Assembly: GCF_900184225.1 (NCBI RefSeq)
Contig: NZ_FXWZ01000003.1
Coordinates: 124,001-188,000 of the forward strand
Direction: 5' to 3'
DNA: 64,000 nucleotides
Origin: Brevibacterium ihuae
Lineage (GTDB): Bacteria; Actinomycetota; Actinomycetes; Actinomycetales; Brevibacteriaceae
Numbering within the stretch: the stretch's first letter is position 1; each line of letters starts with the position of its first letter. A program made the translations under genes and the position numbers. Below are positions 19,515 through 51,007 of the stretch, piece by piece. A model generated the notes under the pieces. It was not told the origin of the DNA, ran no database searches, and saw only the letters and a program-made list of their open reading frames with translations.

Positions 19515-20414
19515 CTAGTCGGGCCGGTCCCCCCACGCCAATCCGGACGGGTCGGCGTTCGCGATCTCGTCGAGCACCGCGCGATCGCGCCGGTCGAGCG
19601 CGGCCGGGTCGAGCGCGGCGATGAGGTCGGGCCGGACCTCGGCGGTGCGGCGCAGGCGCTCGTCTCGGCGCCACCGTGCGATCGCGGCGTGGTTGCCGCT
19701 GAGCAGGATGTCCGGCACCGCGCGGCCGCGCCAGGCGGCCGGCTTCGTGTAGACGGGGTACTCGAGGAGCCCGTCCTCGAGGGACTCCTCGGTGAGCGAT
19801 TCGGGATTGCCGATGATGCCGGGGACGAGGCGGGCGATCGCCTCGGTCATGACGAGCGCGGCGACCTCGCCGCCGTTGAGCACGTAGTCCCCGATCGAGT
19901 GGAGCCGCACCTCGGCGTGGTCGCGGGCCCACTCGACGACGCGCTGGTCGATGCCCTCGTAGCGGCCGCACGCGAACACGAGGTGCTCGCGGCCGGCGAG
20001 CTCGGCGGCGTGGGCCTGGGTGAACGGGGTGCCCGCGGGGCTCGGGACGATGAGGAGCGGACGGTCGCCCGCGGGGCGGTCCTGGCGGCCGGCGGGAGCG
20101 GCCGGCTCGGGGCCGACGGGCCCGGATTCCGCGGAGGCGGGGGCTGCGGTCGGCGAGCCCTCGGGGCCGTCGGGCACCTCGGACCCGACGCCGAGGATCG
20201 CGGTGAGCGCCTCGGCCCAGGGCTCGGGCTTCATCACCATGCCCGCTCCCCCGCCGTACGGGGTGTCGTCGACGGTGCGATGGCGGTCGTGCGTCCAGTC
20301 GCGCAGATCGTGGACGCCGAGGTCGATGATCCCCTTCTCCACCGCGCGCCCGATGAGCGAGAGCCGCAGGGGCGAGAGGTACTCGGGGAAGATAGAGACG
20401 ACGTCGAGGCGCAT
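19515..20414 (-). CDS. trmD: tRNA (guanine-37-N1)-methyltransferase
   Basis: SPOUT methylase that makes m1G37 and prevents +1 frameshifting. Seen: [23 protein letters not shown], the trefoil-knot [10 protein letters not shown] and [10 protein letters not shown], and [11 protein letters not shown]. At 299 residues it is about 40 longer than typical because of an Ala/Gly/Pro-rich insertion at about 75-118, ahead of the knot. The start shares one base with the rimM stop (TGATG). Confidence 0.96.
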
Positions 20415-20908
20415 CAGGCGTCCTCGATGAGTCCGGGCGGCGGGTCGAGGACGATCCGTCCGGCCTCGAGGTCGACCTCGGGCACGATCTGCTCGACGAA
20501 CGGGACGAGCACCTCGGCGCCGGACCCGAGCGTGATGTGGAGGAGGTCCTGCGCCGCACCCGGGGTCACGGCGCTCACGGTGCCGATGCGCAACTCCCCG
20601 ACGAACGCGGCGGCGCCGACGAGATCGTCGATGTACCAGGCATCGTCGTCGTCGAGGGTCTCCTCGACGGAGATCAGGGTGTTGCGGATCTCCTCGGCCC
20701 GGGTCCGGTCGGCGACCTCGCCGAAGGTCAGCAGCAGGCGGTCGCGGTGCCAGCGGGCACGGGTCAGGGTGAGGGTGCCGATGTCGGGCTCGGTGGTGAA
20801 CACCGCACCGGGGACGAAGCGGTCATCGGGCACGTCGGTGCGCACCTCCACGGTGAACTCCCCGCGGATGCCGTGCGGCTTGCCGAGGCGGGCGACCACT
20901 GTGCTCAC
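20414..20908 (-). CDS. rimM: 16S rRNA maturation factor RimM
   Basis: Two-domain RimM of 164 residues: the N-terminal barrel begins [18 protein letters not shown], and the PRC-barrel part has [15 protein letters not shown] and [14 protein letters not shown]. It helps assemble the 30S head with S19. A 166-bp gap upstream to khpA contains a long perfect palindrome, unusual inside this operon. Confidence 0.95.
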
Positions 20909-21006
20909 GCTTCACTCCTTGATCGGGGTACTGCTCGGGACGCGCACACCGGTGCGCAGGATGTCGGTCCCCGCCGGACCGCGATCAGCGGCGGCGAATC
21001 CGGGCC

Positions 21007-21061
21007 GACAATGCAATTTCCCAAGGTTCTGTTCACAGAAACCTTGGGAAATTGCATTGTC
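21007..21061. repeat. Perfect 22-bp-arm palindrome (element 1 of a repeat family)
   Basis: Arms 21007-21028 and 21040-21061 are exact reverse complements with an 11-nt loop (21029-21039). The outer part contains GCAATTTCC/GGAAATTGC and the loop reads, on the minus strand, TCTGTGAACAG. The same layout recurs at 49308-49348 with different middle stem bases. It lies between khpA and rimM in a co-transcribed run, 13 bp beyond the khpA stop. Confidence 0.9.
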
Positions 21062-21074
21062 AGGAGAGGGGGTG

Positions 21075-21305
21075 TCAGGCCTCGACGAGGTCGATACGGA
21101 CGCTCTGCCGTCCGGCCAGCGCTCCGATCACGGCCCGCAGGGCCTTCGCGGTGCGCCCGGACCGGCCGATCACACGGCCGAGGTCGTCGGGGTGCACGCG
21201 CACCTCGAGCGAGGTCCCGCGGTGGCCGCTGCGGCTGCGCACCGAGACGTCCTCCGGGTTGTCGACGATGCCGCGGACGAGGTGTTCGAGAGCGTTGGCG
21301 AGCAT
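21075..21305 (-). CDS. khpA: KH-domain RNA-binding protein KhpA
   Basis: The 76-residue single KH domain carries the GxxG loop as VIGRSGRTAKALR. KhpA family proteins bind RNA, often with KhpB/EloR, in wall-growth control and translation; the gene normally follows rpsP as here, only 2 bp downstream. Confidence 0.95.
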   Translation of the reverse strand: MLANALEHLVRGIVDNPEDVSVRSRSGHRGTSLEVRVHPDDLGRVIGRSGRTAKALRAVIGALAGRQSVRIDLVEA

Positions 21306-48573: not shown

Positions 48574-49302
48574 ATGACACGCATGACCACTCAGAACGGC
48601 AGCGGCGTCGGTGTCATCGACAAGACCGCCCTCGTCCTCTCCGCCCTGGAAGCCGGGCCGGCTTCGCTCGCCGAGCTCGTCACGCTCACCGGACTCGCCC
48701 GGCCGACCGCCCACCGGCTCGCCGTGGCGCTCGAGTTCCACCGCTTCGTCGGCCGCGACCTCCAGGGTCGCTTCACGCTCGGCCCGCGGCTGTCCGAGCT
48801 CTCCTCGGCCGCCGGGGAGGACCGCCTCCTCGCCGCCGCCGGGCCCGTGCTCAACCAGCTCCGGGACCGTACCGGGGAGAGCGCACAGCTGTTCCGCCGG
48901 CAGGGCGACCTGCGCCTGTGCGTGGCCGCTGCCGAGCGTCCCGTGGGACTGCGCGACTCGGTGCCGATCGGTGCCACGCTGAGCATGCGCGCGGGCTCCG
49001 CCGCCCAGGTGCTGCTCGCGTGGGAGGAGCCCGACCGGCTCCACACCGGACTGCGCGGGGCGCGCTTCTCCGCGACGATCCTCTCCGGGGTCCGCCGCCG
49101 CGGCTGGGCGCAGAGCATCGCCGAGCGCGAGCGCGGGGTGGCCTCGGTGTCGGCGCCCGTGCGCGGGCCGAGCAATCTCGTCGTCGCCGCGGTGTCGATC
49201 TCGGGTCCCGTCGACCGCCTCACCCGGCAGCCCGGCCGCCTCCATGCGCAGGCCGTGCTCGAGGCCGCGAAGTCCCTCACCGACGCCCTCAACCGCTCCT
49301 GA
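48574..49302 (+). CDS. ndgR: IclR-family regulator of leuCD (NdgR/LtbR-like)
   Basis: The 242-residue regulator has an N-terminal winged helix (about 10-75; [21 protein letters not shown]) and a C-terminal effector domain (about 85-240; [21 protein letters not shown]). Related proteins divergent from leuCD in Streptomyces (NdgR) and Corynebacterium (LtbR) control leucine and other amino acid genes; the same role here is inferred from position. An alternative start is the ATG at 48583. A palindrome begins 6 bp after the stop. Confidence 0.88.
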
Positions 49303-49307
49303 GACCT

Positions 49308-49348
49308 CAATTTCCGGCGGTTTCTGTGAACGGAACCGCCGGAAATTG
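49308..49348. repeat. Palindrome with 15-bp arms (element 2 of the repeat family)
   Basis: Arms 49308-49322 and 49334-49348 are exact reverse complements around the 11-nt loop TCTGTGAACGG. The outer CAATTTCC/GGAAATTG and the loop match element 1 read on the minus strand, while the middle of the stem differs on both arms together. It starts 6 bp after the ndgR stop, so it may end that transcript. Confidence 0.9.
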
Positions 49349-49494
49349 CTGTTTCACGAGGCTCTTACCGGTCTGCGCAAGGTGTCGCCCGTCGGTTCGC
49401 GGGGGCGCAGGATACGACGCGGCTCGCGCGACGCAGCTCTCTCGTCGCGGATGAGCGGAGCGGACGCCGAGGGGACGGCCACGCCGAGGGGCGA

Positions 49495-49654: not shown

Positions 49655-49815
49655 CGCGACCGCAGCTCCGAGCTCACCTGCCGGGGTCTGAGGCGGCCGT
49701 CCGACGTGGCTCGCCGGAATCCGGGCGGCCGTTCGAGCTCGACCGCGAGAGCCCGACCTCGCCCTCCGGAGCCCGCGGGGGCTTTCCGAAGTCGACATTG
49801 CGAAAATCTGCGTCC

Positions 49816-49848
49816 CGGCTCTCAGGAACCTTCGGAAATTGCACTCTC
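49816..49848. repeat. 33-bp repeat copy A (element 3)
   Basis: This 33-bp segment is identical except for one base to 50930-50962. It carries GGAACC and GGAAATTGC of the palindrome family, with a partial partner arm CTTTCCGAAG just before it, at about 49781-49790, so it looks like a damaged or separated element. Confidence 0.8.
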
Positions 49849-49860
49849 TACGGGAACGAC

Positions 49861-49896
49861 GAAGGCCCGGAGGATCTCGCGATCCTCCGGGCCTTC
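49861..49896 (-). terminator. Terminator of the tRNA-Gln/tRNA-Glu transcript
   Basis: Perfect 16-bp stem (49861-49876 with 49881-49896), 4-nt loop TCGC. It begins 5 bp beyond the 3' end of tRNA-Glu on the minus strand. No U-tract. Confidence 0.85.
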
Positions 49897-49901
49897 CGCT
49901 G

Positions 49902-49974
49902 TACCCCCGAGCAGGTTCGAACTGCCGTTTCCGCCTTGAGAGGGCGGCGTCCTAGGCCACTAGACGACGGGGGC
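49902..49974 (-). tRNA. tRNA-Glu (CTC)
   Basis: 73 nt on the minus strand, from 49974 to 49902. The acceptor GCCCCCG pairs with CGGGGGT plus discriminator A (a G-U pair at the end); the anticodon loop is CTCTCAA between CCGCC and GGCGG, giving CTC; the T-loop GTTCGAA is present. CCA is not encoded. It follows tRNA-Gln by 22 nt. Confidence 0.95.
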
Positions 49975-50150: not shown

Positions 50151-50879
50151 ATGGATCTCTCCCTGCACAACACGGCATTCATCGTCACCGGCGGCACCTC
50201 CGGACTGGGTCTGGCGAGCGCCCGGGCCTTGAATTCCGAGGGCGCGCGGGTCCTCGTGTCCTCCCGCGACCGCTCCCGGGTCGATGCGGCGGTCGCCGAA
50301 CTCGGTGATGGAAGTCACGGGATCGTGCTCGACAATGCCTCCCCCGAGGCGCCCGCGGAGCTGTTCCGGACCGTCGCCGAGGTCTTCCCCGACTCGCCCG
50401 TGGGCGGCGTGCTGATCTCCGTCGGCGGACCGAAGAAGGGCCGCTTCTACGAGACGACGGAGGACGACTGGCGCGACGCCATCGACTCCGTGCTCCTCGG
50501 CACCCTGCGCTTGGCGCGCTATGCCGGCGAGCACCTCGGGCCCGGGTCGGCGATCGGCATGGTGCTGTCGTCCTCGGTGTGGACGCCGGTGCCGGACATC
50601 GCGATCTCCAACGGGCTGCGCCCCGGGCTCGGCATGATGGTCAAGACGCTGTCCGACGAGCTCGGCCCGCGCGATATCCGGGTCGTCGGCATCGCCCCCG
50701 GCATCATCCGCACCCCGCGGGTGGGCAACGCCGAAGTGCCCACCGACCACATCCCGCTGCGCCGGCTCGGCACCCCGGAGGAGTTCGGTCGCGTCGCCGC
50801 GTTCCTCCTCTCCCCGGCGGCCGGCTACGTCAGCGGCAGCGTGATCCCCGTCGACGGCGGGATGATCCGGGCGCTCTGA
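50151..50879 (+). CDS. Atypical short-chain dehydrogenase/reductase
   Basis: The 242-residue SDR has TGGTSGLG (cofactor motif, about residues 13-20) and the C-terminal VSGSVIPVDGG. The central catalytic Ser is in SSSV (about 140-143), but the YxxxK that should follow 13 residues later is SNGLR: Tyr is Ser153 and Lys is Arg157. Such SNxLR variants form a recurring group of SDRs whose reaction is not known to me. ATG at 50151 is used; the upstream frame overlaps tRNA DNA. Confidence 0.82.
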   Translation: MDLSLHNTAFIVTGGTSGLGLASARALNSEGARVLVSSRDRSRVDAAVAELGDGSHGIVLDNASPEAPAELFRTVAEVFPDSPVGGVLISVGGPKKGRFYETTEDDWRDAIDSVLLGTLRLARYAGEHLGPGSAIGMVLSSSVWTPVPDIAISNGLRPGLGMMVKTLSDELGPRDIRVVGIAPGIIRTPRVGNAEVPTDHIPLRRLGTPEEFGRVAAFLLSPAAGYVSGSVIPVDGGMIRAL

Positions 50880-50922
50880 AATCGCAGATTCTGAGATTGC
50901 AGGGTTTGAGATTGCAGAGAAC
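50878..50922. repeat. Three 15-bp degenerate tandem units after the SDR gene
   Basis: Units 50878-50892, 50893-50907 and 50908-50922 each begin GARATYGCAG. The first overlaps the SDR stop codon. They precede the repeat copy at 50930. Confidence 0.65.
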
Positions 50923-50929
50923 GGCGGAT

Positions 50930-50962
50930 CGGCTCACAGGAACCTTCGGAAATTGCACTCTC
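50930..50962. repeat. 33-bp repeat copy B (element 4)
   Basis: One mismatch from 49816-49848, in the same orientation, 1.1 kb away. Located between convergent genes, just ahead of a terminator hairpin. No clear partner arm was found. Confidence 0.85.
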
Positions 50963-50976
50963 GCGGGGAACGCACG

Positions 50977-51007
50977 GCGGCGGTGCCGGTTGACCCGGCA
51001 CCGCCGC
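50977..51007. terminator. Bidirectional terminator between SDR and aldehyde dehydrogenase genes
   Basis: A 13-bp perfect stem (50977-50989 with 50995-51007) and 5-nt loop lie 70-100 bp from both stop codons of the convergent pair. Confidence 0.75.

Follow-up and report, generated by a model that had tools for sequence, protein, structure and literature searches.

This locus raises the question of whether joint changes in the two arms of a palindrome reveal selection on the hairpin that the arms form. The window, i.e. the whole stretch of 64,000 nucleotides that was analysed (C3:124001-188000 of the 3.10-Mb genome of Brevibacterium ihuae), holds two such palindromes, both of the perfect class defined below. 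Element 1 lies on the minus strand at 21002-21066 (reported core 21007-21061; 77.3 bits with the covariance model R1) and has arms of 22 nt with a complementarity of 100% and a spacing of 11 nt. Element 2 lies on the plus strand at 49296-49360 (core 49308-49348; R1 76.5 bits); its arms of 27 nt (49296-49322 and 49334-49360) have a complementarity of 85% and the same spacing of 11 nt. The earlier note had read from the letters that the two share their outer arms, a GGTT/AACC clamp and the loop TCTGTGAAC(A/G)G, and that the changes in mid-stem affect the two arms jointly; both observations are correct. Compensatory changes are the usual proof of a selected RNA structure, and the note took them for the mark of selection on a hairpin and not of simple copying. 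The first half of this proposal stands, in that pairing is maintained in a real family; that selection was at work instead of copying does not follow, and matching changes in two arms alone are not proof of selection. The answer that we consider reasonably probable from the sequences is a lineage-specific, REP-like repeat of transcript 3' ends that was perfected by arm copying through template switching, the perfect forms serving as terminator or 3'-end hairpins.

The size of the family was determined with three kinds of searches. The pattern GGTTTCTGTGAACNGAACC, with up to two mismatches, gave 18 matches in the whole B. ihuae genome (17 members of the family and one sequence, L018, that is not) and the reversed pattern gave 0. 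The seventeen pattern copies align without gaps (alignment A1, from which L018 was excluded; 3 of 63 sites of other length were likewise excluded from alignment A2), and 15 of the 26 pairs carry at least one change on both sides. Model R1 gave 107 matches in B. ihuae at E ≤ 1, many of which are the same palindrome seen on both strands; once strand duplicates were removed, 55 separate sites at E ≤ 0.01 were counted, so the finding that the earlier note had named as a refutation, only two copies in the genome, did not come about. The 18 versus 0 matches of the pattern control and these 55 sites argue that the family is not due to chance. R1 also gave 79 matches at E ≤ 0.1 in Brevibacterium sp. 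CS2 (NZ_CP040020.1, genome G003), many palindromes again being counted on both strands. A sequence-only model (R2) lengthened the list of B. ihuae sites beyond that of R1, and nhmmer on the fetched loci yielded 72 sites in B. ihuae and 65 in CS2, of which 135 (70 + 65) scored above 25 bits; the 2 of the 72 B. ihuae sites below 25 bits are outside the 135-copy set. The covariance-model search of the genome and its relatives that the earlier note had proposed thus ends at about 70 copies in B. ihuae and 65 in CS2. In these counts, two B. ihuae copies split by an insertion sequence (IS) appear as halves, and 4 partial copies are included in the imperfect class.

The range of the family is narrow. 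At E ≤ 1e-4, R2 matched in 2 of 57 Brevibacterium genomes, B. ihuae and CS2 (stricter filters lose weak matches). R1 at E ≤ 0.01 matched in 9 of 39 genomes, namely B. ihuae, CS2, Brevibacterium G016 (see below) and six with one match each, which on inspection look like unrelated palindromes. Exact-pattern matches in other genomes comprised 17 stretches (9 in CS2, 3 in Microtetraspora and 5 scattered); those outside Brevibacterium miss the outer arms and were dropped as unrelated. With Rfam 15 at the gathering score only two tRNAs were matched in the window, the matches around element 1 all being below threshold. A plasmid, phage or viral origin was rejected, since collections of such sequences held no similar copy when queried with one imperfect copy and one exact 23-mer. 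Searches of the literature on Brevibacterium palindromic or REP repeats, template-switch quasi-palindromes and terminator repeats returned no paper on the family among the matches listed, and PMC12306157 and PMC2267715 make no mention of Brevibacterium. Between B. ihuae and CS2, 55 orthologous pairs of sites were found, 52 on the same strand (hand-picked from 76 flank matches) and 3 when the opposite strand was allowed; the repeat sites are therefore old. Several variants were seen along the way. A subset (B. ihuae C2 239291 and C3 355983; CS2 110211, 1383166 and 2666567) shares an extra left sequence, CATTCACCCCTCAATTT, directly behind a terminator-like stem, which suggests a subfamily with its own left end. 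Close facing copies make long, BIME-like inverted repeats (B. ihuae C2:37312/37386, C2:569262/569348 and C3:775088/775247), and CS2 1119925 (L155) carries about 20 extra loop bases with arms that still pair.

The position of the copies relative to genes was assessed with genes called by a codon-usage gene finder. The upstream gene lies in the sense of the element at 64 of 72 sites in B. ihuae (62 of 70 without the right halves of the IS-split copies) and at 57 of 65 in CS2. Random placement would give a fraction of 0.46-0.50, as estimated from 31 gaps in the window; at 0.5 the binomial P values are 3e-12 for B. ihuae and 2e-10 for CS2, orthologous sites not being independent. Sites between divergent genes number 0 of 72 and 1 of 65, the downstream gene being unknown at 4 and 3 sites, respectively. 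The core follows the stop codon at a distance of 0-25 nt at 45 of the 64 sense sites in B. ihuae and 37 of the 57 in CS2, and at 13 and 11 sites a TGA-type stop lies inside the element itself; element 2, for instance, contains the stop codon of the gene at 48583-49302 (+). The upstream gene has the opposite sense at 8 B. ihuae sites, of which 4 follow tRNA genes in sense (569262, 239291, 1512315 and window 49821); no tRNA precedes 435694, 775088, 1336307 and 1242454. Copy 778168 also follows a tRNA gene in sense.

At 15 of the 135 sites (9 in B. ihuae and 6 in CS2, some of them orthologous) a strong hairpin lies ahead of the element, with 10-25 nt from its stem to the start of the core; two imperfect copies in the window are examples. 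Element 3 (49789-49853, minus; R1 19 bits, R2 E 1.4e-13, 6 of 18 inner pairs) follows in sense a tRNA gene (49902-49974, minus) and that tRNA's terminator-like hairpin, an inverted repeat with a 16-bp stem at 49861-49896 (minus); the best fold upstream of the element is −37.1 kcal/mol. Element 4 (50903-50967, minus; R1 27.3 bits, 9 of 18 inner pairs) stands directly behind a terminator-like hairpin with 13-nt arms, read from the sequence at 50977-51007 (minus), the best fold upstream being −40.3 kcal/mol. Beside element 4, at 50879-50920 (minus), the right end of the element recurs in short repeats (TGCAATCTCA / TGCGATTTCA), TGCAATCTCA being repeated two or three times.

The copies differ widely in pairing. 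Inner pairs were counted out of 18 with a fixed 7-base loop, so that copies with loop insertions (CS2 571665 and 1119925) were scored as imperfect or dropped. The distribution is bimodal, with 23 copies at 18/18 (15 in B. ihuae and 8 in CS2) and a broad second peak at 5-9. With class limits of at least 15 inner pairs for perfect and fewer than 11 for imperfect, the 135 copies divide into 47 perfect, 28 intermediate and 60 imperfect ones. Over 65 nt, the mean folding energy was −39.9 kcal/mol for the perfect class (n = 47) versus −15.0 for shuffles of 30 sequences, and −14.5 kcal/mol for the imperfect class (58 distinct sequences) versus −13.1 for shuffles of 30 sequences; a stable GC-rich hairpin is present in the former (47/135) and absent from the latter (60/135). 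Rescue of the imperfect copies by a downstream hairpin was rejected, as no such hairpin was found above the shuffled level. The imperfect copies have one common quasi-palindromic consensus with hardly any pairing, and this form may well be ancestral; the consensus of the likely ancestral form is approximately GCAATTTCCGAAGGTTCC-TGAGAGC-GGATCCGCA-N-GC-AATCTCA.

Perfect and imperfect alleles also occur at orthologous sites. Of the 52 listed orthologous pairs, 2 were lost because the copies could not be located again within 8 nt. The 50 that were classed comprise 13 with perfect copies in both genomes, 15 with imperfect copies in both, 6 that combine a perfect with an intermediate copy and 12 of other kinds; the remaining 4 are perfect in B. 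ihuae and imperfect in CS2. Element 2 belongs to these 4 (its CS2 orthologue at 3102612 has 10 of 18 inner pairs); the CS2 orthologue of element 1 is at 3058145. Orthologues agree at 0.92-0.98 at most positions of GGTTCCTG.GA, two positions being lower (0.82 and 0.70), and at the GC of columns 53-54; agreement is about 0.6 in the variable stretch of the right arm and in the outer left arm. This unevenness along the element implies that a portion of it is under a constraint unrelated to pairing.

The way in which the arms came to match was then inferred from the states at columns 21-23 and 43-45. In the 47 perfect copies these were TGC/GCA (20), GAA/TTC (11), CGC/GCG (6), GGC/GCC (5) and five others once each. 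In the 65 copies with fewer than 12 inner pairs (the limit used for this count, the class counts being based on fewer than 11) they were GAA/GCA (26), GAA/GCG (12), GAA/GCC (11) and 16 others. TGC/GCA, CGC/GCG and GGC/GCC would represent the right arm copied leftwards and GAA/TTC the left arm copied rightwards. Mixed arm states at columns 22-23 occurred at 1 of 34 sites versus 14.5 expected (P 1.6e-7, with sites taken as independent and 2 further sites, unpaired there, excluded). Homogenisation of the arms in blocks of several bases, as expected from template switching, is therefore seen both in the scarcity of mixed states and in the perfect/imperfect orthologues. The non-Watson-Crick cells left in the perfect copies comprised 5 GU, 17 AC and 17 others; there is no enrichment of G-U, and these mismatches look like unconverted residue rather than wobble intermediates.

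The loop suggests local events. At 3 orthologous sites, found only with the opposite strand allowed, the loop is inverted between matching arms (B. ihuae C3 807038, 1512315 and 1516068 versus CS2 571665, 1294987 and 1299485), again as expected from template switching. In the fixed register these copies have 17, 18 and 16 of 18 inner pairs in B. ihuae and 6, 14 and 13 in CS2, the low score of 6 being due to an extra loop base in CS2 571665 that breaks the register. The loop inversions are a mark of arm copying that is independent of the block arm states. Arm homogenisation and spacer inversion by template switching have been described in yeast (PMC8604942), and compensatory changes in blocks in RNA genes (PMC8794818), where the evidence that short stems are maintained is itself called circumstantial. 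Arm homogenisation, multi-base compensatory changes and spacer inversion, the hallmarks of template-switch correction of quasi-palindromes, are all seen in the present family. Template switching has been described for RNA genes, coding DNA of yeast and mutation assays in E. coli; here it would concern a dispersed bacterial gene-end repeat with two directions of copying.

These data have to be weighed against ordinary compensatory evolution, in which paired changes would be fixed step by step, one base pair after another, under selection for an RNA hairpin or DNA cruciform. The covariation check that had been proposed for the family came out in the sense of this explanation, with a score of 0.255 versus 0.113 for shuffled and at most 0.083 for slid alignments (first 17 copies), and the 13 perfect/perfect orthologous pairs have double changes at 23 pair positions and one-sided changes at 15. 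The doubly changed pairs in this set were, however, adjacent 6 times versus 2.2 if scattered (P 0.009) or 2.9 if column-weighted (P 0.034). The block states, the absence of a G-U excess, the loop inversions and the 60 of 135 copies that stay in place unpaired make arm copying the better explanation of the double changes, and we regard stepwise compensation as rather unlikely, even though, with some of the cut-offs, perfect copies are under-represented after a pre-existing hairpin (see below). A second possibility is that perfect copies multiplied as subfamilies or overwrote other, dispersed copies through gene conversion, in which case sets of arm states would arise without template switching. 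That 16 of the 23 fully perfect copies share an arm with another copy, and that the 7 unique arms are 1-2 bases from another copy, fits such spreading; the 55 orthologous site pairs point to old sites, and the inversion of the loop between matching arms at orthologous sites suggests a local event, which makes dispersed copying an unlikely source of the pattern. Template switching is preferred over pairwise compensation on the strength of the block states, the residual mismatches, the loop inversions and the published arm homogenisation and spacer inversion, although orthologous copies do not count as independent events. During replication, the nascent strand would switch arms, and one arm would be copied onto the other. 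The repeat, which is about 56 bp long and lives at transcript 3' ends of this lineage, likely descends from a quasi-palindrome; by arm copying, perfect palindromes could be reached in few events, kept perfect as the sequence drifts, and occasionally be left with an inverted loop.

The family resembles REP and BIME elements, which are short palindromes dispersed at gene 3' ends, lineage-specific and present in dozens per genome, with IS elements in the loop. It differs from them in that fewer than half of the copies are near-perfect, in its strong sense orientation and in that no Y1 (RAYT-type, PF01797) transposase was matched in B. ihuae and 24 other Brevibacterium genomes; PF01797 matched in 1 of 39 genomes, in another family, and in 5 of 14 controls. 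Mobilisation of a classical REP by a RAYT would agree with the size, the 3'-end placement, the avoidance of divergent gaps and the targeting of the loop by an IS. The lack of a PF01797 match in these 25 genomes contradicts it, short of a transposase that has been lost or belongs to a different family; REP/RAYT membership was rejected and this origin is considered very unlikely. That IS elements target REPs is established (Tobes and Pareja 2006, PMC1525189). In B. ihuae an intact IS with HTH_38 and rve domains lies exactly in the loop of two copies (C2:1095875-1097137 and C3:1114799-1116026; L183 1510-2752 and L184), with apparent 2-base target duplications (TG and AG). Both full-length genome copies of this IS, presumably IS30-like, sit in repeat loops, other matches being about 50% identical or less.

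The hairpins of the perfect copies most likely act as terminators or 3'-end hairpins, which is the weakest step of the argument. The RNA of a perfect copy would form a strong hairpin just behind a stop codon or tRNA, possibly serving both genes of a convergent pair. Three observations point to this role: the copies stand at 3' ends in the sense of the gene, those of the perfect class form a strong hairpin, and in a gap between convergent genes one CS2 copy takes the place of two facing B. ihuae copies (C2 838415/838596). With intrinsic terminators the family has in common the strong, sense-oriented hairpin close behind the stop codon, and also behind tRNAs; it differs in its conserved loop and core, its unpaired class at equivalent places and the lack of a strict T-tract. 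No terminator-like site with a strict T-tract was found at element 1, and the 8 nt past the inner stem contain 1-4 T in all 47 perfect copies, which is not a T-rich tract. TRIT terminators are known from mycobacteria. That terminators can derive from repeats is illustrated by those made of DNA-uptake sequences (PMC2267715). Unrelated intrinsic terminators that are alike by chance would account for hairpins directly behind stop codons, but the loop and core conserved over 135 copies, the imperfect copies that have this sequence but form no hairpin, and the 18 versus 0 control make this explanation hardly credible.

Where a terminator-like hairpin already precedes the site, perfect copies are less frequent (1 of 15 versus 46 of 120; P 0.019 at −30 kcal/mol, a cut-off chosen afterwards, with P 0.112, 0.053, 0.057 and 0.057 at −26, −28, −32 and −34). 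At −30 kcal/mol the P values are 0.068 for B. ihuae alone and 0.327 for CS2 alone. In a separate comparison with near-stop sites only, P = 0.17. The scarcity speaks, weakly, for selection of a hairpin at sites that had none, and some selection on the hairpin may thus remain.

Element 1 lies between two genes that we take, from their protein sequences, to be khpA (21075-21305, minus) and rimM (20414-20899, minus). A strong hairpin of other sequence is present 3' of khpA in 10 other Brevibacterium loci (the best matches after B. ihuae and CS2; 57 genomes searched), and khpA and rimM are about 0.9-3.6 kb apart in Brevibacterium genomes G016, G018 and G056 (match coordinates). Because of these different hairpins and the separation of the genes in relatives, the position of element 1 is probably a transcription-unit boundary; the earlier note, which placed this copy inside a khpA-rimM operon, was right about the neighbours and probably not about the operon. 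The khpA site suggested that the element replaces terminators generally. This was rejected for other orthologous gene ends: in the relatives G015 and G043, which are without the family, hairpins of −30 kcal/mol or lower were present at 7 of 30 element-orthologous ends (22 chosen sites requested, 19 found) versus 5 of 27 in a set of ordinary gene ends from the B. ihuae window, which is no clear excess. Like the missing T-tract and the unpaired class in equivalent positions, this speaks against the terminator role.

Brevibacterium G016 has a palindrome family of its own. In that genome its arm GAGTGAGCGGTTTC was matched 17 times, at 16 sites of which one has both arms; G004 has 1 match and the remaining 55 Brevibacterium genomes have none. 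The arms vary together and the loop is present in both orientations (loci L236-L240 and L242-L259, L243 excepted); the design, with a similar skeleton, resembles that of the B. ihuae family, by whose model the G016 copies were first picked, so the likeness need not reflect homology. Tentatively, then, a repeat that colonises 3' ends (stops, tRNAs and terminator hairpins), nearly always in the sense of the gene, might have been made into working terminators by template switching, more than once within Brevibacterium, each lineage using a sequence of its own.

The findings place REP-like repeats, and an IS that targets their loops, in a genus in which no RAYT was found (25 genomes). With 135 copies in two species and 55 orthologous pairs, the family lends itself to a natural test of how frequently template switching imitates covariation, and also of how new terminators could arise. 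If the proposed route is true, ready-made perfect hairpins would be supplied by mutation rather than by stepwise selection.
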